Shown: positions 7,975-64,000 of the stretch, piece by piece
Layout of the letters: every line of letters starts with the position of its first letter
How positions within the stretch are numbered: the first letter of the stretch is position 1
Assembly: GCA_030765065.1 (NCBI GenBank)
Contig: CM060990.1
Location: 674,590,118 to 674,654,117, forward strand
Source: Deroplatys truncata
Taxonomy: Eukaryota > Arthropoda > Insecta > Mantodea > Mantidae
DNA: 64,000 bases
Direction of reading: 5' to 3'
Notes under the pieces: model-generated
Databases searched by the model: none
Seen by the model: only the letters and a program-made list of their open reading frames with translations
Told to the model about the DNA's origin: nothing
Position numbers and translations under genes: made by a program

Positions 7975-9254
7975 CGAGGGCAGACCCAGAAGTACCCATC
8001 TGATGTATAGATAGTGGTTGTTGTTTCACACAAATGGCTTTAGTAGAAATTACCAATCTTATAAAGCTTAATTCTGAAGTTTGACGATGCTACGTCGTTT
8101 AGTAATTGTTTGGCAGCCACGAATAGTGAGCTCTCTAAGCGAATTTGTAAACATGGATAAAACTGGTCATCGTTATGTGATGCAATACTTTCATTTGAAA
8201 GGTCTTAGTCCAACTAATATTAAAGCTGAGCTTGATTCTAATCTGGGGGAGTCTGCTCCTTCGTTTACAACAGTAAAATATTGGGTGGCAGAGTTTAAGC
8301 GAGGTCGTACGAGATGCCAAGACGAACATCGCAGTGGTCGACTAAATGAAGTGACCACGCCAGAAATTGTGAGGAAAATCCACAGAATGGTATTGGATGA
8401 CCGTCGACTAAAAGTGCGCGAGATAGCAGACATCGTAGGCATTTCAAAAAGTGCAGTAGATCGCACACTAACTGAAAATTTAGACACGAGAAAGCTGTGC
8501 GCAAGATAGGTGCCGCGTTTACTTACAATAGAAGAAAAGCAGCGTCTTGAGGATGTTTTAGTCGAGTGTTTGGCGATGTTTCGCTGCAATAAAGCCGGGT
8601 TTTTGCGCCGATTCATAAACATGAATAGAACATGGATCCATCACTTCACACCTGAGACGAAGAAACAGTCAAAACAGTGCATTGAAAGGGGAGAATCGGC
8701 CCCAAAGAAGGCGAAGACAGTTTCATCTGCAGGCAAGGTCATGGCGTCATTTTTTGGGATGCGCATGGAATAATTTTCATTCATTATCTTCAAAAAGGAA
8801 AATCAATCAATGGTGAGTATTATGCAAACTTATTGCAGCGTTTGAATGATGAAATTTAGCAAAAACGGCCGTATTTAGCGAAAAAGAAGGTTCTGTTTCA
8901 TCCAGACAATGCACCAGTTCACACATCCATTATCGCCATGGCCAAAATCAATGAGTTAAAGTTCGAATTGCCTCCTCATGCACCCTATTTGTTCCCTGTG
9001 ATTATTTTCTATTTCCAAAGTTGAATAAATCTTGGTGCTAAAATATTTGCCAACAGTGAAGAGCTGAAGTCTGCAAGTAATGGCTATTTTACAGAACTCG
9101 ACGGTTCTCACTATAAACAGGGTATCGAAGCTATTGAACATCGCTGGGAAAAGTGTATGGAGCTGAAAGGAGACTATGTAGAGAAATAAAGATATTTTTT
9201 CCCAAAGTTTTTGTGTTTTCTTTGTTAGGTCGGGTACTTCTGGGACAGCCCTCG
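7975..9254 (+). mobile_element. mariner transposon, mellifera-like
   Basis: The ends are inverted repeats: the left begins CGAGGGCAGACCCAGAAGTA and the right end reads CGAGGGCTGTCCCAGAAGTA on the other strand, two mismatches in the first 23 bases. TA lies directly outside both ends (7973-7974 and 9255-9256). At 1280 bp it has the usual length of a complete mariner and encloses one broken transposase. The inverted repeat and protein resemble the mellifera subfamily. It is decayed and not autonomous. Confidence 0.92.
8153..9189 (+). pseudogene. mariner transposase, broken
   Basis: The start codon at 8153 gives MDKTGHRYVMQYFHLKGLSP, the standard N-terminus of this mariner group, followed by a paired helix-turn-helix region (ADIVGISKSAVDRTL). 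An in-frame TAG at 8507 stands where the family has Trp in 'CARWVPRLLT', and the same frame then continues to 8773. A frameshift near 8755 moves the reading to the frame carrying the first catalytic Asp (WDAHG, 8758-8760) and the second (HPDNAP, 8905-8907). A TAG interrupts this at about 8858, and the block that should hold the third Asp (SPD..P.DYF) is damaged by small deletions near 8980. The C-terminus survives as YKQGIEAIEHRWEKCMELKG up to the TAA at 9187-9189. It would have catalysed cut-and-paste transposition at TA sites; it is certainly inactive. Confidence 0.92.
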
Positions 9255-13519: not shown

Positions 13520-14482
13520 ATGGATACGACTTCCAGGAAGCGAAGTGCGATTCTGGCATTAACACAAAATACTCCTATGACGGAAAGAGTGATAGTTCGG
13601 TGTTGGTGTAGTCACTACACATACAATTATTGATCAGCACAAAGAGACTGGCTCCATTACACCAAAGAAAAAGGGGAAATCTGGTCGGAAAAAGAAAACT
13701 TCACCAACCGATGACCGCTTTCTCCTTAGGAAAAGCAAAACAAACCCTAGGCTCACTGCTGTGGTCTTGGCTCGCGACCTGAGAGACAGGGGAGTGAATC
13801 TAGATGTATCTAATGTTCGCCATAGACTTTGATCAGTTGGAAGAAAAGCCAGAAAACCCGTGAAAAAACAACTTCTTACACAAGCAATGCGCAAGAAAGG
13901 CCGCTTATGAGCGTGTGCTCATCGGAATTGGAAAAAAGTTATTTTCTCTGATGAGACTCATTTCGAAGTGCAAGGTCAGAGGATTCAGTATGTGCGCCGA
14001 GCAAATAATGAACCTGCAAATTCAGCATATTTTCAACGGACTGTAAAACGCCCTGAGAAGGAAATATTTTGGGGCTGTTTCACCTATGAAGGACTAGGAC
14101 CTTTAATTCCAGCTGAAGGCATGATGAAAAGTGATCAGTACATCACAGTACTGGTGAGAGCTGTTCGTGAACTCCAGAAAAGGTTTCCGGAAGGTGAATT
14201 ATTCAGCAAGATTTAGCCACCTGGCACACTTCTGAGAAAGTGAAGAAATTCTTCAAAAATAACAATGTTCGTGAGCTTGACTGGCCAGGAAATTCCCCTG
14301 ACATTAACCCCATAGAATATTTGTGGGCTATTTGCAGAAAGAGACTTGCAAACTTTGACTGTTCTACAAAAGAACGTTTGATATTAGCTTTAATTAAAGT
14401 ATGGTTTCATGATGATGCTCTCAAAAATGTGTGTTCGAATTTTGTGGAGTCAATGCCTAAGCGTGTAATGAAAGTTATATAG
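13520..14482 (+). pseudogene. Tc1-type DD34E transposase, broken
   Basis: The ATG at 13520 gives MDTTSRKRSAILALTQNTPM, a typical Tc1 start ahead of a helix-turn-helix domain. Frameshifts near 13590 break the helix-turn-helix, and an in-frame TGA lies at 13908, shortly before the catalytic core. The core then reads WKKVIFSDETHFEVQG (first Asp, 13950-13952), WGCFTYEGLGPL, and after a one-base shift near 14202 QQDLATWHTSEKVKKFF (second Asp, 14210-14212), NSPDINPIEYLWAICRKRL (Glu, 14315-14317). Exactly 34 residues separate Asp and Glu, which defines DD34E. The frame ends at 14482 with KRVMKVI. All three catalytic residues survive although the frame is broken, so decay looks fairly young. Confidence 0.92.
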
Positions 14483-31897: not shown

Positions 31898-32100
31898 CGC
31901 CAAAAAGCAGGCTGCTCTAGCGGCATATGCCTTGAAGGCTGCCGCACCACCGCTGATTGCCACCGCCAAAAAGCCGGCCGCTCTGCCGGCATCTGCCTTG
32001 AAGGCTGCCGCACTTTTTTTTTTCTTTTTTTTTAATAGTGTGGCCCCGCCTCACCGCTGATTGCCACCGCCAAAAAGCCGGCCGCTCTGCCGGCATCTGC
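31898..32100 (+). repeat. Three 5'-end monomers of the retroposon
   Basis: The phrase CGCCAAAAAGC-GGC-GCTCT, then gc-ggcat-tgcc, recurs at about 31898, 31964 and 32068. Units 1 and 2 are contiguous with a period of about 67 bp; unit 3 is separated from unit 2 by a T-rich stretch (about 32011-32034). The layout resembles the tandem 5' UTR monomers of some LINEs, which act as promoters. Confidence 0.65.
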
Positions 32101-32191
32101 CGCCAGAGTTGCGACACCACCGCCGGTGGCCGGGCCTTCCTTTGCCTCGGTCACCACCACACAGCAACGACAATGAGAACCAGCACCTCTG

Positions 32192-33301
32192 ATGACAACA
32201 TCGCCACCAGCACACACACCGCCGGCAACGCAACCACCTCTAAGATTCAGCACGACGCAGCACTTCCAGCCGCAGCCAGCACCAGTGACATCGACTGCAC
32301 CACCACCTTTGCACCCACACCGATCCAGTGTTGTGGTCAACGAGTTCCCCGGGATCTGCCAACAAGGTTCATTCTCGCCGCCGCTCGGCATCACTTCTTC
32401 CCGGGGCCCAACATCACTCGTCCGCCTGGAATTGGCTGACACGTCCGACTGCGAAGCAGCCTTGAGCTCGGGCCTGCCCTTATTAGGGCGAGTTCTCCGA
32501 CTTGAGGCTAGCCGAGCAGAAAGCCATCAGCCATGTCGCCGCTGCTGCACCTACGGCCATGCGGCTCACCTCTGCACCGCCACACCGCGTTGCCACTACT
32601 GCGGCTCACCTAGTCTCACCGCCGATTGCAGAGGTCATGACCTTCGACGACGACGCCGGTACTGTGCCACCTGTAATGGCTTCGGCCACTATACGGGTCA
32701 GGCACGGTGCCCAAGATATCCTCGTCCGCCGAGGACCACACCGCCAGCTACCGCAGCGCCACCAGCTCCACCACCGGCAGTCCACAGCTTTGGACCACTT
32801 CACCAGCATCCAACAGCACCTGAACAGCCTACACTGCCTCACAACACTTCCGAGGAGCGCCTCCGGGAGGCCGTCCAGGACCTGCACTCTGAGGTCCTGA
32901 CGATAGGCGGCCGCCTTGGAGACGTCGCCGAAGAAGTCCACACCATCGCAGAAGACAACACAGAAACCCGTCTGCGACGCCTTGACAGCATCGACGCCTC
33001 CATCCAGGGGTTACGTGACCAGATGACAACATTCACTACTGAGTTCAACCACCTGCACATGCTCCTCCAATCGCTGCAGGAGCGTGTCCATCAACTACAC
33101 GAGCTACTAGACCATCAGGACAACTTCACAGAGTCTACATCAACACAGTCTTCACCTACAGCACCAGCCGAATCTCCGCAGCTCTCTCCACGGAGTGCTC
33201 GCGCCCGACGAAACCTACGTTTCTTCGAAACATACATAAGTCACAACCCTAATGAATACTATTCGAGTCACCGCAACAGGAACAGCGGCAACCACCGTTA
33301 A
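32192..33301 (+). CDS. Gag-like ORF1 protein of a non-LTR element, intact
   Basis: 369 codons from ATG 32192 to the stop at 33299-33301, without interruption. Residues about 1-75 are Pro/Thr/Ser-rich. Residues about 76-110 (SLVRLELADTSDCEAAL, then LPLLGRVLRLE) resemble the small fold before the knuckles of jockey/I-type ORF1 proteins. Cys/His knuckles follow at about 113-170: CRRCCTYGHAAHLC (a true CCHC), CHYCGSPSLTADC and CATCNGFGHYTGQARC. A Pro-rich linker leads to a predicted coiled coil at about 225-320 (EERLREAVQDLHSEVLTIGG onwards), then a Ser-rich, basic tail. Such proteins bind element RNA as chaperones in cytoplasmic particles. The start chosen is the first ATG of the open frame; upstream ATGs lie in other frames. 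Intactness among decayed neighbours suggests a recent insertion. Confidence 0.82.
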   Translation: MTTSPPAHTPPATQPPLRFSTTQHFQPQPAPVTSTAPPPLHPHRSSVVVNEFPGICQQGSFSPPLGITSSRGPTSLVRLELADTSDCEAALSSGLPLLGRVLRLEASRAESHQPCRRCCTYGHAAHLCTATPRCHYCGSPSLTADCRGHDLRRRRRYCATCNGFGHYTGQARCPRYPRPPRTTPPATAAPPAPPPAVHSFGPLHQHPTAPEQPTLPHNTSEERLREAVQDLHSEVLTIGGRLGDVAEEVHTIAEDNTETRLRRLDSIDASIQGLRDQMTTFTTEFNHLHMLLQSLQERVHQLHELLDHQDNFTESTSTQSSPTAPAESPQLSPRSARARRNLRFFETYISHNPNEYYSSHRNRNSGNHR

Positions 33302-33379
33302 CACAATAAAGAAAACCATCCTTAATCCCTTCCTACTCCTTTCACGAACCTCCCCGTGTGTGGCGACCAGGGACTAAAA

Positions 33380-33640
33380 AAAAAAAAAAAAAGTTGATTT
33401 TGTGTAATATCTCTTACACATTTATGCAGCAGCTCATCACACTCTAGTCTTTGATAGATAGGCATTATCTTGGAAACAGTTGACTCAGAAAGCTGTATGG
33501 ATATTTTATCACTGGTATCAGGTTGTATACCATTAGCCATACCTTTGTTGTAAAAGCACCAGGAGTCTGTGCCAGTGGGATATTTGCCATGCTAGGATTT
33601 GTTGTCTGTTGGCATGCAGTGATTGAGGATAATATAAATA
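33380..33640 (-). pseudogene. Kolobok-like transposase, central block
   Basis: Read on the minus strand: AIYIILNHCMPTDNKS, stop, HGKYPTGTDSWCFYNKGM, then MANGIQPDTSDKISIQLSES, IMPIYQRLECDELLHKC and DITQNQ. The order H...P-x-G-x-D-SWC-x-Y..., I-x-P-I-Y..., L-L-x-K-C..., TQN is that of the Mutator-like domain of Kolobok transposases found in insects and cnidarians, where TQN continues into NES. The protein breaks off exactly after TQN at the poly(A) end of the retroposon. One in-frame TAG is present. Confidence 0.65.
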
Positions 33641-45690: not shown

Positions 45691-46249
45691 AAACGTTACT
45701 ACACAACTAAATCTTGACATATGTAATTGCTTGCTCTCCAGCTAATTGTTCTTTCTGACACATGGATAAACATGCTTTTCAGCCAATTCAGAAGACCAGA
45801 AAACTGCCAGTATGTTAAATAACCTCATTGTTTTATTGTTAAATATTTATTTTAAAAGTTGTAAATTCGCCATATGACTAATATGTTAAAGCGACTATAA
45901 AGTTTCAAAATAAATAAAACAAAGATCAAAAATGCCCCACAGGATCAGATTCTTGGTGTTTCCATAATGCAAGCATAGCTAGTGGTGAAACTCCGCAGAG
46001 CCATTCCCAGATGTCCGTTCAGTTCGATGATAGTATGGTTAGAAGAATTGTTCTCATATATCAGATACTAGCTTGCTCTGAGCTACTGGCACGCTGTGCT
46101 CGTGGAGGGGCTCAAAATTTAAAAAAAAAAGTGTTTTCTCACTCATTTGAAAAACTTGTCGTATAGAAAATATTATTTCTAAGAAGCGTTAGAAACTGGG
46201 CATTAAATAGTGTTTCCACTTTTAATATGGGCTGATCAACTTCTGAGGA
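45691..46249. other. No gene recognised
   Basis: AT-rich; nothing recognised. Confidence 0.5.
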
Positions 46250-49772: not shown

Positions 49773-51740
49773 CAGGGGTAGGAAGTTCATGCTCTAAAAT
49801 CTCTTGTAATATGCATGCAAATATGCCCTTAAAATGTGCGAAATATGCACCAAAATATGCCCTAAAATTATTATATTTAAAGACAATGTGCACATGCAAA
49901 CTTACATGTATTGCTGAGAAGTAGATGCACATGACTCCACATCCAAAATGAGGGATGAATTACAATTTACCACTACTGCATGACGGAGACTTTCCATGGT
50001 ATATCTTCGTCTGTTGTCTCTCAATATACTTTTGTATCTTGAAAAACTTGTTTCAACGTCACATGAGGATATTGGTGCATACTTAAAAGTTGATGGTTGT
50101 TCCACAGAAAGAGACAAGTCTTCAGGTATCCCTAAAGGCTTTCCTTCAAGAATTTCTCGTATTTTGGAGATATGTTTATACCCAGGGTTTCTTAAAAGAA
50201 CATAGTTTACTTTGTCTTTTTTATTTTCTGCCCTACATTACCTGGAATGGACACCAAACCAGAAATGGTAGTATGGAATACTTTTAATGACTGATATAAG
50301 GGAAGACTGTTGTTTCCAGGGATTTAATTGCTGCAGGCATATTGGAAAACTGTGTTAATATAAAGGCAAGATTTCCTTCAAGTTCATCTGAGAGAACATT
50401 CTGTGCTATATGAATTGAAACAGCATCATCTGATTCTAATGAATTAATAACTCTTCTGACTGACGCTAAATGTTTAGCATAACACAATGCAGCTGTTATC
50501 CAACTCCCCCAAGGGGTTAAAACAGGTTCAGGTGGTAGTGGAATATTAGGCGGCATCTTTTTGAAAAGCTGGACCCTAGATGCAGATTTAAGAAACACTT
50601 TTTTCACATTAGAGATTAACTTATCTACTTTAGGAAAACGTAACCTAATTGTTTCTGCAATGCGATGAAGGGCATGAATAAGATAAGTTAAATGAATGCT
50701 CTTAGGAAAAATTTCTCTTAGTGTTTTCCCCGCTTTGATCATATAGCTTGCTGCATCAGTTAAAAACACGTTCACAGAAACAACAGCACATCGCATATTC
50801 AGTGCATCTCACTTCTTATTTAGGTTGGCAGTACCCACTCTGCATAGAAAAATGGCTACGTTTGTTGTTTTCCTCACGCTATTTGCCTATATAAGTGAAA
50901 CACCTAAAACTGGTGGGTAGGTGGGCACCAGATGTTGGAGAGACCACATCATGTTGTAAACTCACTCCTAAGGTAATTTATTTCATTATTTTTCACTTAT
51001 TCCTAATTTAGCCTTCATTTCTGTCACTTTTTTCACAATCACTTCCCTGTGCTTTGCAGTATTAATATGTTGAACGATCTGAAACCGTTTTTCACTCCCA
51101 ATATTTTTTTCACATGCCTTACATTATAAGATTCTACCATCTGTACTAATAAGATCACTAGAAAATTCACTTTGTAAACTCTTACGTCTGTCGCATTACT
51201 TGGTTTCACCTTCGGCATTTTTAATACTGTAGGTATTCATACCACCTCGTCACAAACAAACTACTGTAGTAGTAGTAAATTAGTAGCTGCAATGGCTGCT
51301 CGATCAACACACACACTCTTATTGCTTAATCTATTCCCCAGTACAGCGGGGATTTCCCTATCTTCCAAGCCATCACATGATTCTTACCAGTATTGCATCA
51401 CTCACTCTTCACATGATCATGAATCACTTGCCTCAGTGATATTGGCAGAGAGCGAAGCGGGATCCTTTCTTTAGCATCAGTTTACAGAAAAACAAGTTGA
51501 CCAGTTAACCAAAATAACTCATTTTAAAAAGTATTTCCCGTTTAAGTGTTAAATATGCCAAATAAACATGCTATTTACTAAATATGATGCAGTTACTTAA
51601 AACAGCATAAATATGCAATTATATGCCCAATAAAAATCACTCAGAGCACTAGAAAATTCATAGTTCAGGAAGATAATTTATCAGCATATCAATAACATGC
51701 TTTGAAAAAAATATGCAAATGCATGAACTTCCTAACCCTG
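49773..51740 (-). mobile_element. hAT transposon with 8-bp target duplication, CGGBP1-like
   Basis: The left end CAGGGGTAGGAAGTTCATGC and the right end, complemented, CAGGGTTAGGAAGTTCATGC differ by one base. Both are directly flanked by attattat (49765-49772 and 51741-51748), a perfect 8-bp duplication. 'atatgc' motifs cluster inside both ends, as in the hAT at 19909. The 1968-bp interior codes a broken transposase on the minus strand with a zinc-finger N-terminus and a hAT dimerisation C-terminus. Complete at the ends but not autonomous. Confidence 0.93.
49905..51218 (-). pseudogene. hAT transposase related to CGGBP1, broken
   Basis: The start MPKVKPSNATDVRVYK at 51218 is typical of the CGGBP1-like/hAT group; a shifted frame then gives SDLISTDGRIL, stop, CKACEKNIGSEKRFQIVQHI and NTAKH, a C2H2 (BED-like) finger. 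The next 200 bp are poorly preserved. The frame 50796-50284 (170 codons) carries VFLTDAASYMIKAGKTLREI, HALHRIAETIRLRFPKVDKL, PPEPVLTPWGSW and ALCYAKHLASVRRVI, the conserved centre. After two further shifts the C-terminus appears: LRNPGYKHISKIREILEG and CDVETSFSRYKSILRDNRR, the hAT dimerisation motif. Several stops and frameshifts are visible. Human CGGBP1 derives from the same group, but this copy is a transposon, not that gene. Confidence 0.87.
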
Positions 51741-51748
51741 ATTATTAT

Positions 51749-54337
51749 GTTGGACATTATTTGACTTGTAGGGCGATGCTACGAGAAACAGCGCTTTAGA
51801 AATATTATCATTTATCCGGTAGCCTATACCTAAATTTGTAATGTTTATCATAAACTCCCCAAGGTCCAGTTTCCGAGATTTGCTGTATTGGTCCTGTATG
51901 TAATTTGCTAATAACGAATTGTATGCCCAATTTAAAAGTGATTTTCGCCATTTGGATGATTTTGTCTGGGGTTATTTATGTCTTGGAGGCATTATAGATT
52001 CGCTGCAGCTTCCTAACTTGAGTCTTGACTGACCCAAAATGCTAAAGTTTTTCATTATCGATGTCCTGATCGATACCATCTCTCAAATTGCAGTTGGTTA
52101 TATGCTGGCCTTCATATTCCCTTTTTATATCCACGAGAAACAAACGAACTTGCACTCTCTGAAATGTATTGATTATGGTAATGGAAAATTCAAACAAATA
52201 GGAGATATCTGGTAAAGAATTAAAGATATGAAAATAATTATATAAGAAAGTTTTGATTATTTGAACAAGTTCCACGTTTTTGGTTGGGAAATTGCTACTC
52301 TCTCGTACATCTTCCCAGGTATATAGAATTCTCTAAAATTCCCTGGCAATAAACAGGACTCGTAAGCGAAGTAGGCTTTTTCCATAATGAAATAAAATGT
52401 ACTAGACGCATCAAATACTAGGGCTACGTTTAAGAAAACAAGCAACGAGTTTTCACTCATATTAAGAGTATACAGAAGTATTGAATTTTGTATTATTGTC
52501 CATTTCTTCCACATTTTAAAATCTTTTGAGTTATTCAGCTTATATCAATTGACCTACTTACTTTATAATGATATGTATTTAACAAACTCTTTTTCAAATC
52601 TGCACCGGAAGATTCCATTAAGAAGGAAAATAGAAAATATCTGTTAAATGGGGCTCCATTTAACTGTTGTATACGGGTCCATATGTATTTTTTGCTTTTC
52701 ATCATTGCAACTTGTCACTGTTCTGAACTAAATATGCATTAACTGGGCTTATCAAAGATTGATAATGCAAGCGTAATCACAATAATATTAAGCACTTCAA
52801 CAACCTATTTTAAAAAGCTTAATATGTTTAAAAAATTTACTGAGAACTATATTCCTAAGAAGAAGGCCAAAAAAAATGTTAATACATGAAATAAATTTAA
52901 GTAATTACCATTCACAATCAAACTGTAAAACAAAAACTTTGCTTGGGCTGTTAGAAATGCAAAAAAAAAAAAAATAGATTTATATATTGCACACTCAGTA
53001 AAATTAAGTTTCTCAGTACTGGAATTATAAAATCACAAACATTTCTTTGTGCTATTCATCTCTTGAGAGTCATAAAATTTGACTGTTATATTAACTGACC
53101 TAACATTCAGTAAGGGACTTCTGTGAAATAAGAGAAGATCTCACTCAACAGTTTACATTTTTAAATGAGGTTGCTACTAGCCCAATTTGATGAATGAGAT
53201 TTGTGTGCTTTATAGCCTCAGTAACAGATAAATACTATGAACTTCCAATACCTTTACATTAAGCATGGCAAGGTGGAAGAAGCAAATGGGATGTATCTAT
53301 AGCTCAAGAGATGGCATGATAATTTGTATTGCAGTTGTACACTGTTTTAAAATATGCAAGTGCAAGCAGAAAGTTTGAAATAAACAAACTTCTATGTTAA
53401 CGACAGTGTAAAATTGGTCCTGAAACTAAAAGCTTTTGAGTTTAAAAAATTATATATTCTTAGTTTTAAACAATCCCACATGAGTTTCTCCGTCCATAAA
53501 GGGTTTTAATGTGGAGGCACCTTATTCCTATGCCCATATTTATATTAAATTGCACTTTTCCCCAACTTATATTTTAGGTGCATTTATTTCTGTAATCCAT
53601 TAAGGTGCATCGATGAAATTGTCAGTCTAGAAGCTAGCTTTTCCACCCAAAATTATTGAACAAATTGCTAATTATAATTTATCAAAAATTACCTATATGT
53701 AAAAATTGGAATTATTCCTATGTTACAAATGTAAAACGCTTTTCTTTGTTTCTGATCATAAGAAAAACTTCTAGCTGGAATTTTTCAAGGAAGCCGTCAC
53801 AGTTTTCAAAAAGTTCGCTCAAAAAATGTGCAACTGAAGATTCTCCCAAAAGTGAACATTTTAAAAGAAAAATATGTGGTTTTACGATATGTGCACAACT
53901 TTTAGCATGCACAGATCAGTTTACGTTGCTTATGTTTGGAAAAAGATTTTCTCAAATTAGAATCTATGTTGGCTGTCATAGTCAGAAAGTAACATCTGAC
54001 TATCCAGTGCTCTTGAATGTCTTGTTTTAATTAGTGTGACAACACTTAAAAACAGTACATGAAGTGAAATGTGTTTTAAGCAACATTTTTTATTTAAGTT
54101 TTCTGTTACTTTTTTTAAAAAATCTGTATGGTAATAAAATTAAACTAAAGAAAACTAAAACTCATCCATATTGTTTATAACAATAAATACAGCATGATTT
54201 ATGCCAGTTAATTACTGACTGGATGCTTGGTGATGACGTAGCATTGTAACCAGAGAACACGTTGACTGAGAATGTCTGTAAATAAGTGCATGTACAACGT
54301 AATATAAAACATCATATTTATAGCATTACACTGATTA
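51749..54337. other. No gene recognised
   Basis: 2.6 kb of AT-rich DNA. The longest frame, 124 codons at 53656-54030, is Lys/Ser/Phe-rich without a recognisable domain. A poly(A)-like run of 14 A lies at about 52962-52975. Confidence 0.45.
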
Positions 54338-55935
54338 ATAATAATAATAATAATAATAATCTTTATTGCCCATAGATTTGTTTTATACAAATATCAACCA
54401 TAGTCATTTGTATTACAATTTTACAATTCATTCATAGAATACATACATTTCGTAATTAAATATTCTTTAAGTTCCTTTTTAATATAGGTTCATTTTGAAG
54501 TTTTATATTAGTTGGCAATTTGTTGAAAAAAATAGTTCTCATAACGTATACATCTTTTTCAGTAGATACTTTACTAAATCCAGTCCTGTAATAATCTGCA
54601 TTATTTCTCATGTTATAGTTATGTACATTATTGTTTGTTGTTAGATTTCTTTCCCTTACAAATAGTATTGACTTATATGCATATAGCGAATAGAGCGTAA
54701 GTACATTATTGTTTATAAATGCGTTTCTACATGATTGTGTGGGTGACATATTATTTATAATCCTAATACACTTCTTTTGAAGAATGAATAATCTATCCAT
54801 ATATATCTTTGCTGCTGCTCCCCATATCTCTATACCATATAATAAATTTGTATAAATTATACCATAATATAACAACCAAAGAATATACTTATTTGAAAAT
54901 AATCTAAAATGTCATAAGAGATATACTGATTTACTATTTTTTGCATACATAATTAATATGTTCTGCCTAGGTTAACTTTTCATCCACTATTATGCCTAAA
55001 AATTTATGCTGTTTCACTTTAGTTATTTGTTCATCATTTACAATTAAACTAATTTCTGTGCTATTTCTCTAGAACGTAATTCCAATAGCATATAAGTTGT
55101 CTTTTTTATGTTACAGAGAATATTTTTTGATTTAAAATATTTTAATAGGTTTCTTAAAGTATTCAACATATTTGTTTTTAGTGAATTATAAACCACATCC
55201 CAGCAATTTACAGTTGTGTCATCAGCGAAGGAAAAAATACCAGAATTTTTAGTCACAGTAACATTATTTACATAAAGAATAAACAAGAGAGAGCCCAGTA
55301 CTGTATCTTGAGAGACTCCATATTCAACTATGTAATAATCTGACTCTTATTATATTTATTGATTCTTCTGTCTTATATGGAATTTGCACTGCTTGTTTCC
55401 TTCCTGTTAAATATGATGCAATTAGTTTCTTAGCTATTCCCCGTACCCCATATTGCTCCAATTTATTCATTAATAAATCATGCTTTACTGAATCAAAAGC
55501 TTTCGTTAAATCAAGAAAGATAGTACCAATTTTCCCACCCTTTTCAAGTTTACTAAAAACTTCATGTATGAAGTCAGCGATTGCTGTTATAGTTGAAAGA
55601 CCTCTCCTAAAACCATGTTGAAAATCACAAATTACATTATTTAAATTTATAAAATGTACCATTCGGTTTAAAATAATTTTTTCAAACAATTTAGCTAATT
55701 CGGATAATAAGGTTATAGGACGATAATTATTTATATTTGCCTGATCACCTTGTTTATGTACTGGTCTAACTAATCCTATCTTCAGCAATTCGGGAAAAGT
55801 TCCTGCCTGAATTGAAAAATTTATAAGGTGTTCAAGAAGTTTTACTAACTGCTCTTTACAATGTTTTAATATCTATGGGCTTACTTCATCCCAACCACAT
55901 GAGTTTTTCTTTGTTAAGCGATTAATTTGAAGCAT
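54338..55935 (-). pseudogene. LINE reverse transcriptase, 5'-truncated and broken (jockey/CR1-like)
   Basis: Minus strand, C-terminal part of an ORF2. Blocks in order: NSCGWDEVSP, stop, CKEQLVKLLEHLINFSIQAG, LLKIGLVRPVHKQGDQANIN, NNYRPITLLSELAKLFEKII, GFRRGLSTITAIADFIHEVF, FLDLTKAFDSVKHDLLMNKL, then after a shift GVSQDTVLGSLLFILYV and SFADDTT, which keeps the catalytic Asp pair, then KFLGIIVDEKL, LLYGIEIWGAAAKIYMDRLF and LQKKCIRIINNMSP. The stop lies at 54456-54458. The 3' UTR ends AATAAAG followed by (ATT)n (54339-54361). It copies element RNA by target-primed reverse transcription. No endonuclease domain is present; the 5' truncation abuts the Harbinger remnant. At least four disruptions. 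Confidence 0.88.
54339..54361. repeat. (ATT)n 3' tail of the LINE
   Basis: About seven TAA units (plus strand) exactly at the 3' end of the LINE, directly after its AATAAA. A simple-repeat tail instead of poly(A) is known for several LINE clades. Confidence 0.8.
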
Positions 55936-55959: not shown

Positions 55960-57050
55960 TTTGTTCAATCACTCTACCTCTGTCCGTTTCTCTAACAGTA
56001 AGTGCTTCTATGGCTAGGTTATCCCAGGCATGCTCATTCCCTTCCACTGGAAAATCTTGGGGCCAATATTATGGAGAACGGTACATGCAGCAATTATTCG
56101 AGTGGTTGTTCTTAGCTTATTTGTAAGCTTCTGTCAGAGGAAATCTACGCTTAAGTGCACCAAATGTTCTTTCAACACAATTCCTGGTTGGAATTAGTGC
56201 ACTGTTATAGCGCTGCTCAGGAACTGTTTGTGGGTCTTGCACTGGTGTATACAGATATTTGGTTTGGCGATAACCCCCATCACCAAGCAAAAAGGAGTTC
56301 CTGAGGTCCCTCTCCTCAAGACGTTCCTTAACCCCACTATTATCAAAAATTCTGGAATCGTATGTTGATCCAAGCCATCGTATTACTACATAAAATAGCT
56401 GAAGCTGAGGTTCTGTTACAGCTTGGACATTTGGGTACACCTCTGCATTTTGACCTCCAGGGTTTATAACGGGTATATGTGTACAGTTTATGCATCCAAG
56501 GAAATTTGGGAAGAATCTCATATTTAAAACGCCAATTTTCACTTGACGTCTTCCAGCTTCAGTCTGAGGAAAATGTGCAACATTAAGTAAATATCTTGTC
56601 AATCTTTCTGAAATCTCTCTTATGATTCTGCAAGCACTTGTCTGAGTGATTTCTGACACATCCCCACATACAATCTGCAATTTAGAAATAAAGTACGTTA
56701 AAGCAGAGAGGATATTATTAGAATTACATAGAAATTCAGAAAATAAGCTAATTAACCAAACAGTCCCCAAATGTATCAAGACCAAAATGAAAAGGTCTTA
56801 CCTAGTAACTTCTTGCAGCATAAAATCTCAGTGCAGTTGTCAGTCTTATATTGGGGGAACTGGCAAATCCCTCTTTGTTTTAGGTTCTTGCAAAGTTACA
56901 GGCATTATATGATGCACTGCTGGAAAATCCAACTTCTCAGAAACTGGGCACTATTTGTGTAATGGATTCTCATAGTCCGGAAATAATCGTAGAACATTCT
57001 CATATAAGTCGTCGGCCATTACATAGTTCATAAACTCAATAAAATCATCT
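55960..57050 (-). pseudogene. PIF/Harbinger transposase (HARBI1-like), two exons, broken
   Basis: Exon 1 (about 57050-56802, minus) includes ADDFIEFMNYVMADDLYENV in one frame and IRLTTALRFYAARSY in another, then TAG where the family has Gln, then donor GTAAGA (56801). The acceptor AAATTGCAG ends at 56675, giving a 127-nt intron. Exon 2 begins IVCGDVSEITQTSACRIIRE, then FFPNFLGCINCTHIPVINPG, LQLFYVVIRWLGSTYDSRIF, FLLGDGGYRQTKYLYTP, EQRYNSALIPTRNCVERTFG and ALKRRFP. Family catalytic residues: the first Asp (GCIDCTHI) is Asn here, the second Asp (STYDSRIF) and Glu (VERTF) remain. Several residues are missing after PGGQNAEVYPN. A frameshift after RFPL continues as RTTTRIIAACTVLHNI. The enzyme would cut and paste into 3-bp TWA targets with a Myb/SANT partner. 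Terminal repeats were not identified. Confidence 0.88.
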
Positions 57051-62770: not shown

Positions 62771-64000
62771 GCAAATTACTCTTTTGTTATAATTGACTGA
62801 TCAAGTTTAGATACTAAAGATAAATATGTATATCTATATGGGTTACCGAATATGACGTACATATTATCGCAATAAAATTGGGTTATATTTTTGTCCCTGT
62901 TGTATTCCTATGAACAGCAATATGTTAGTAAAGGTATATTAATCAAGTATGGTTTGAATTAGAGGGAAACATGCTGATTTATTTATTATTTAGTTATGTT
63001 TGCTTCTATGCAGTAACAAGCATTGATACCACTGTGAGAATACATTTCTGCTTATTTTTTGTTATAAGGGATTGCTATATATTTAATGAGTACCATTCAA
63101 GCTTTAATTTTAAAATATTCTCACACTGTACATTCTACATTTCGCTAACCTGGGCGCCCATAAAGTTTTCCCCTTAGCTTTTAACCCTTTCAAAGGCTTG
63201 TCCTGCACTAGCCGATAAAGTATGGGCTACCAATCACGATAAGAGGTCTGTATGACAAACTGAATGCACTCACTCTACCTCTTTCTCTTTTGGCCAATAC
63301 GATCAAGAGTGTAAACATATATTTCCTTTCTACGTCATTTTGTAACCTTTGTTGTGGTTATTGGTGCAACTATTTAGCAGAAGGACTGGCGCATCCTTGC
63401 ACCATGGCATGGCAACGATAAATAATGTGACATAGACGCGAGGTGCAGTGAGATTTTCTTTGGCGCTCTTTGTACACTAAACATGCAGGTTGCAGGGTGG
63501 TGCTTTGTTAGTATTACTGCAGTGGGTTAGTCGGGTTCCGCGGAAGCACCCCGCTTAGTATCGGTTATTGAAATGCTGGCATGCAAAGATGCGAGCGCGT
63601 CATTGCTGTGTCCAGGGGTCCACACATGGTCGAGGTTCTGCGGGGATCGCTGGTGTTAGTGGTAAGAATCATGGATGTGAGAGAGGTCAGGTGTTAGCGG
63701 TAAAGGTTTGTGTTAAGTTGTGGTATCTAGAGGTTAATACTAATCTTGAATCAACGTATGTACAAGGTGGGGGCAGGCATAATTGATTATTACCGTTCAT
63801 GGCGTGGTTGGGTGTAGAGCTAAGTCCGTTCCGTGGATCTCAGTGGTTGTCCAGTCGTCATGGTTCTTGGCAGCAAGTCCTGTAAAGAATCAATTGAATA
63901 GCAGCTAAGGAATGTAGCCACTGATGCGAGCGAGATGTAGGCACACGAGCATCAATGGCGTCGGAGTTGTGTGTGAGTGTTCGGTCAAAGGCTGACAGGG
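62771..64000. other. No gene recognised
   Basis: AT-rich to 63.4 kb, then more GC- and G/T-rich to the end of the window. The 72-codon frame at 63568-63786 has no recognised motif. Confidence 0.45.

Follow-up and report, generated by a model that had tools for sequence, protein, structure and literature searches.

A truncated copy of a probable ORF1-only non-LTR retroposon family in the mantis Deroplatys truncata

HAL1 elements of mammals are described as non-autonomous retroposons that derive from L1, carry ORF1 only, and are thought to be moved in trans by a LINE (PMC5753468, PMC4859970). HeT-A, at the telomeres of Drosophila, is reported to code in one ORF for a gag-like structural protein and to take its reverse transcriptase (RT) from another element (PMC4700185). 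In the Jockey superfamily, the type I ORF1 is described as an RRM plus three CCHC motifs (PMC4120745). LINEs of the stringent type are reported to need a 3' stem-loop, which is shared within LINE/SINE pairs (PMC4176376), and a short, internally deleted element derived from CR1, Persaeus, is described from Lepidoptera (PMC6740152). Judging from titles and the first lines of abstracts, in a collection that leaves most subscription journals outside its coverage, we saw no ORF1-only arthropod family other than HeT-A.

We analyzed a stretch of 64,000 nucleotides of the mantis Deroplatys truncata (assembly GCA_030765065.1, contig CM060990.1, positions 674,590,118 to 674,654,117 of the forward strand), hereafter the window. 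In an initial annotation, the block at 31898-33392 (+) had been described as an intact, ORF1-only retroposon with a poly(A) tail. Our main conclusion, to which we assign a probability of roughly 0.8, is that this block is a defective and fairly recent copy of a family of ORF1-only (gag-only) non-LTR retroposons, whose RNA would make its own packaging protein and would rely on another LINE to supply RT and endonuclease in trans.

Part of the earlier description holds. The block is GC-rich (61% at 32001-33000), it contains the only long frame of the window (369 codons from ATG to TAA at 32192-33301, on the + strand like all features of the block, the runner-up among ATG ORFs having 170 codons), and it ends in a run of 17 A, with no RT anywhere in 31898-33392. 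None of 1000 dinucleotide shuffles of the block gave such a long frame (maximum 340 codons), so that it is not the product of chance; for the shorter stretch 32150-33301, one shuffle in 1000 reached 369 codons. Direct reading of the protein revealed three zinc-knuckle-like motifs (32534-32713). The first (CX2CX4HX4C, aa 115-128) and the third (CX2CX4HX6C, aa 158-173) are Cys/His knuckles as annotated, whereas the His is missing from the middle one (aa 134-146), here and in the relatives read. Matches to Pfam are weak: zf-CCHC_6 gave E-values of 0.033 in the window ORF and 0.0036 in a relative (L050), both below the cut-off, and no RRM or knuckle match reached the cut-off in the window ORF, a read-through version of it (see below), or the relatives tested, two of which (L010 and L012) matched 0 families. 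An RRM-like region ahead of the knuckles was recognized by eye. Comparison of the ORF1 protein with the PDB gave no match at accepted levels, a scan of viral contigs with the knuckle region gave no relative, and the searches for Rfam families (at the gathering score) and for tRNAs returned 0 hits each. The AlphaFold2 model, computed from the single sequence with no alignment, has a mean pLDDT of 55.0, and its sole confident feature is a long helix at aa 220-319 (32849-33148), with pLDDT of 84-93 over aa 221-310 and 61 over aa 311-320. The helix is probably a coiled coil, and the annotated coiled coil is retained at that strength.

To place the block in a family, we searched the 4.29-Gb assembly that holds the window. 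The DNA search gave 56 match rows (40 of 2213 candidates scored), with the best relatives matching at 83-90% over nearly the whole length; we fetched 30 regions around these rows, and then nine more. At the protein level, 135 rows were obtained (132 of 15847 candidates scored), which form groups near 74, 66-70, and 51-55% amino acid identity. By our own count, 28 of the 135 are open over at least 500 aa without a stop. Three rows of the 74% group lie on one contig (C56). Together with an alignment of 30 sequences, the DNA search assigns the block to what we call type A. A full open ORF1, starting at MGRKK and with no ORF2 behind it, was found in L048 (type C) and in two loci of type D (L049 and L050). 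In L053 (type E) the frame stays open for 480 aa, as far as the fetched sequence reaches, and the remaining loci fetched from the protein-search groups have broken frames. The element in L048 measures 1.8 kb, with a frame of 508 aa, an A tail, and a target-site duplication (TSD) of 12 bp, TCGAAACTGGTA. That of L009 has 11 bp, CACCTAGCACA, and TSDs were also found in L011 (12 bp), L016 (9 bp), L027 (9 bp), and L051 (11 bp), i.e., in six loci in total, with some extra bases between TSD and element in L011 and L016. A convincing TSD is absent from L013, L017, L023, L025, L049, and L050, and the scan left out L010 and L014, where its anchor was not found. The family thus has the A-rich 3' tail and the TSDs of non-LTR insertions. 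We conclude that a full member spans about 1.8 kb, in which a single ORF of about 500 codons lies between a short 5' UTR and a structured, hairpin-bearing 3' UTR; the tail is C/A-rich or plain A. The ORF starts with Ala/Pro-rich repeats, followed by the RRM-like region seen by eye, the three zinc-knuckle motifs, and the long coiled coil. Many of the tails in L009-L045 end in a variable C tract and then a few A, e.g., CCCCCCCCCAAAA, and others are plain A; slippage of the RT may account for the C tract. Members of the family adjoin or sit inside other retroelements in L013, L027, L055, and L062, and in L013 a type-E tail immediately precedes a type-A copy.

The initial annotation had suggested comparing synonymous and nonsynonymous changes among copies, and this comparison indicates purifying selection in the sources. 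Over 32405-33298 in 30 aligned copies, leaving out alleles seen twice, singleton alleles are distributed over codon positions 1/2/3 as 177/183/176 and alleles common to at least three copies as 49/39/124. The counts are similar without the window copy (177/181/175 and 48/39/122) and in type A alone (155/145/151 and 22/17/70). Synonymous and nonsynonymous changes number 139 and 375 among singletons (plus 15 stops), and 105 and 101 among shared alleles (plus one stop). There is no third-position bias in the Pro-rich part at 32192-32330 (13/11/11) or in the tested piece of the 3' UTR (20/22/18). Over whole aligned frames, dN/dS ranges from 0.26 to 0.40 in 10 of the 11 pairs computed, and is 0.57 in the close pair L049/L050; the lineages compared diverge to dS values of 0.6-1.3. 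Since shared changes concentrate at third codon positions and private ones do not, the source ORF1s evolved under purifying selection. Once inserted, copies decay freely, while the sources have retained a functional ORF1.

The 3' UTRs of types A to F align around the motif GGGCYTCGG, and the pairing of their main hairpin is kept through changes on both sides. Covariation in the 13 sequences tested was 0.359, compared with 0.161 +/- 0.022 in shuffled alignments (0 of 500 reached it) and at most 0.120 when the structure was slid, for a structure that had been predicted on the same alignment. In 13 sequences, hand-picked for diversity among the 24 printed, the hairpin has 23 pairs, 93.6% of the cells are paired, and 9 pairs show double changes. 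Other measures are less decisive, as the count of doubly changed pairs was reached by 27 of 500 shuffles and that of pair types by 119 of 500. A model of the structure matches 47 of 50 loci, 10 of which had helped to train it, and misses L032, L033, and L046; it is present in all 11 of the loci L048-L058. The family thus has a conserved 3' stem-loop, as expected for a partner of a stringent-type LINE. One locus of 6 kb (L058) carries several diverged versions of the structure, as if members of the family had repeatedly inserted side by side.

These results bear on the possibility that the copies are processed pseudogenes, i.e., LINE-made retrocopies of a small host gene family coding for a domesticated gag-like protein, with selection acting on the genes. 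This scenario, too, predicts A tails and TSDs, single copies that decay neutrally, and a source under purifying selection, and the failure to find an autonomous partner (see below) also agrees with it. We nevertheless consider it unlikely, given that there are several diverged groups, that 28 rows have long open frames, that the structured 3' UTR is kept by compensatory change from type A to type F, and that the protein is gag-like, with knuckles and a coiled coil.

The initial annotation had asked whether all other copies run into an ORF2, which would make the window copy a single deletion product. This is not the case in the loci read: behind ORF1 come the shared 3' UTR, a tail, and other sequence, as expected of an ORF1-only family with many copies. 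No ORF2 adjoins ORF1 in L048-L058, and the idea that type B or E copies continue into one was not borne out in those read. We also approached the question from the 3' end. An exact search of the genome with 26 nt of this UTR as pattern gave 279 matches, and 0 with a reversed control; 100 of the matches were listed and 12 were read about 750 bases upstream. Five of these reads contain the known ORF1 end (tblastn), two are reduced to the 3' UTR, and five show the end of another coiled-coil ORF, recognized by eye (type F). No RT was found upstream of the 12 matches, by eye or by a homology check with one RT query.

The homology check covered 64 loci (L009-L072) and used as queries the RT relic of the window and the endonuclease of L055; with a single type of RT as query, other RTs could be missed. 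It identified an RT fragment behind the element in L027 alone, in the same direction, beyond the tail and about 240 bases past the 3' structure. Since a TSD lies between the two, we read this RT as part of a LINE into which the copy jumped. An endonuclease was found in L055 and also in L062, where it is antisense and precedes a truncated copy; we think that the 3'-UTR piece of L062 lies within such a LINE. In Pfam, the endonuclease ORF near L055 matches Exo_endo_phos_2 (E 2.1e-13). We rejected it as the ORF2 of the family because its LINE starts after the type-E element's own tail. A related LINE is abundant, with many open frames of 909 aa, and 25 of the 121 rows of its search lie on contig C88. 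Tested as a partner, it gave no acceptable match to the 3' structure in the 601 bases behind ORF2 of one copy (best 7.4 bits, on the opposite strand). Mobilization in trans fits the class to which the family belongs. The partner LINE assumed by the initial annotation was not found, nor was any autonomous element sharing this 3' UTR or ORF1 among the best-scored candidates of the genome. Genome searches score the best candidates only, so that a relative with ORF2 may be missed.

Could the copies be repeated internal deletion products of an autonomous LINE with ORF1 and ORF2, the selection on ORF1 being that on the parent? HAL1 is described as having arisen several times independently from L1 (PMC5753468), and the ORF1 studied here looks, by eye, like a Jockey-superfamily ORF1 of type I. 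On the other hand, the ORF1 stop and the 3' UTR adjoin identically in types A to F, which is explained more simply by one ORF1-only ancestor, and no relative bearing ORF2 was recognized in the 50 ORF1 loci or in the 12 loci where we read the sequence ahead of the 3' UTR. Recurrent deletion therefore seems to us a little less probable even than the origin from host genes.

The window copy is damaged, and incomplete at both ends. In its first part (31898-32131), repeat detection found a unit of about 66 bp present three times, which in the frames of relatives codes for the Ala/Lys/Pro-rich repeats of the ORF1 N-terminus. There, the frame is open upstream through the repeats back to the MGRKK start. 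The repeats are therefore no 5' UTR, which rules out the idea of a promoter-like region, and the window copy begins within them. The second repeat carries a T-rich insert of 38 nt (32014-32051), delimited by comparison with the other repeats rather than by a base-by-base alignment; the matches of relatives mostly stop or restart around it. In the alignment, an in-frame TGA (32174-32176) replaces the AGA or GGA of relatives. The true ORF1 has about 500 codons in relatives, and the window frame starts past the nonsense codon, at an internal methionine. Further on, about 15 codons (32342-32387) are out of frame between a deletion of 1 nt and one of 32 nt, whose borders are ambiguous by a few bases. 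They damage the RRM-like half, identified by eye, that precedes the knuckles; a deletion of 9 nt is in frame. The window ORF appears intact because the 1-nt and 32-nt deletions jointly restore the frame. Another idea, based on visual inspection and a weak codon-position score, took the N-terminal 75 codons to be out of frame and the frame of the ATG at 32173 to be the true one. Relatives refute it, since the N-terminal frame is correct and the shift is limited to 32342-32387; the corresponding read-through protein had no better matches in Pfam or the PDB, and a mean pLDDT of 52.3 compared with 55.0.

The 3' end is also incomplete. The 3' UTR of about 75 bp in the initial annotation (33302-33375) turned out to be just the first part of a family 3' UTR of about 220-230 nt, and stops in the loop of the conserved hairpin, leaving out its 3' arm. 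The A17 tail follows (33376-33392) where relatives continue: all 27 fetched type-A loci that cover this point run on past it (L009-L028, L039-L045), even if another insertion interrupts L043 four bases beyond. The loci that do not cover it are deleted there (L032, L033, L036) or end earlier (L046). The tail of the window copy thus lies in the conserved hairpin of the 3' UTR, about 155 bases short of the family's end, where full 3' UTRs mostly close with a C-rich/A tail. No fetched copy has the 3' end of the window copy, an outcome that had been named beforehand as speaking against a half-LINE.

Taken at face value, a frame open for 369 codons could mean that the window copy is itself a half-LINE, intact and complete from its 5' UTR to the end of a 75-bp 3' UTR. 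Given the internal start, the nonsense codon, the out-of-frame stretch, and the loss of part of the 3' UTR with one arm of the hairpin, we regard this as highly improbable. The assignment to A-tailed, ORF1-only retroposons with the layout of HAL1 and HeT-A thus stands for the family; the window copy is an internal fragment of a member, truncated at both ends and with no recognizable TSD. Recent movement is supported in part, by its terminal branch of 0.025, in a ladder-like tree built from the first-fetched loci (leaving out the nine regions fetched next and all later loci), and by 7 private substitutions in 971 sites. The open frame, which had been taken as an argument for it, does not show that the copy works.

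No TSD was found around the window copy, the best shared word having 8 bp and lying 72 bases into the 3' side. The 3' flank is the relic of a protein-coding repeat (33394-33591, - strand), which matches a relic at 45918-46163 with 48% identity over 63 aa (blastp, E 4e-23). Pfam had no match in the flank relic; we take both relics to be Mutator-like transposases, and presume that some tens of bases may be missing at the insertion. The 3'-UTR structure of the family occurs once more in the window, as a short and diverged relic at 63524-63667 on the - strand (model R1, 36.7 bits, E 7.6e-10), with no recognizable ORF1 upstream, including 1.2 kb beyond the window. The window also holds the relic of another LINE (54336-55872, - strand; RVT_1, E 4.5e-18), with a (TAA)8 repeat close to its 3' side, and relics of DNA transposons at 56120-56797 (-), 8078-8506 (+), 14198-14479 (+), and 50287-50808 (-), with matches to DDE_Tnp_4, a Mos1-type HTH, DDE_3, and DUF659 (the last below its cut-off).

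Returning to the ORF1-only family, we propose that an intact copy would be transcribed and that the ORF1 protein, translated from the element's RNA, would package RNA, perhaps its own. The RT of a LINE would then recognize the 3' hairpin in trans, and target-primed insertion would create the TSD. The window copy probably comes from an RNA that was cut short and polyadenylated early, inside the hairpin, and would have been inserted 5'-truncated, without a recognizable TSD. That it has a poly(A) tail despite the loss of one hairpin arm suggests that insertion does not always require the hairpin. A more specific proposal, to which we would give slightly less than even odds, is that the family is an old and self-standing gag-only lineage, which acts in cis, has kept its packaging ORF through its subfamilies without an RT, and borrows one from an unrelated LINE by means of the conserved 3' hairpin. 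Under this proposal, the packaging ORF was selected through several subfamilies without RT, so that the RNA from which the ORF1 protein is translated must itself profit from it. Non-autonomous elements are expected to lose the proteins that they can borrow. Since many ORF1-only copies are open and the source ORFs look selected, the family provides a natural test of whether the ORF1 proteins of LINEs act in cis, on the RNA they come from.

We can now compare the family with known systems. Like Persaeus, it would be a non-autonomous, LINE-derived element of insects, Persaeus being described as internally deleted. As in stringent-type LINE/SINE pairs, a conserved 3' stem-loop could be read by an RT in trans; in contrast to them, the family codes for a protein, and a LINE with the same tail was not found here. 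Its ORF1 recalls the Jockey type I ORF1 in having an RRM-like region (by eye) followed by three knuckle motifs, and differs from it in the absence of ORF2, the second knuckle without His, the coiled coil C-terminal to the knuckles, and the lack of a significant Pfam match. The gag of HeT-A has knuckles. The family shares with HeT-A the single gag-like ORF and, as proposed, an RT coming from elsewhere. Unlike HeT-A, TART, and TAHRE, the loci read lie inside long contigs, with TSDs in six of them, and no telomere arrays were seen among these loci. With HAL1, it has in common that it codes for ORF1 only and has no RT of its own. It departs from HAL1 in having zinc-knuckle motifs followed by a coiled coil, and in lineages diverging to the dS values given above, and no match to an L1-type (Tnp22-type) ORF1 was found among the Pfam rows of the window ORF, L050, and L052, or among the best 25 of 31 rows for L048. 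By the tests made, the family works like HAL1 and HeT-A, yet it is neither.
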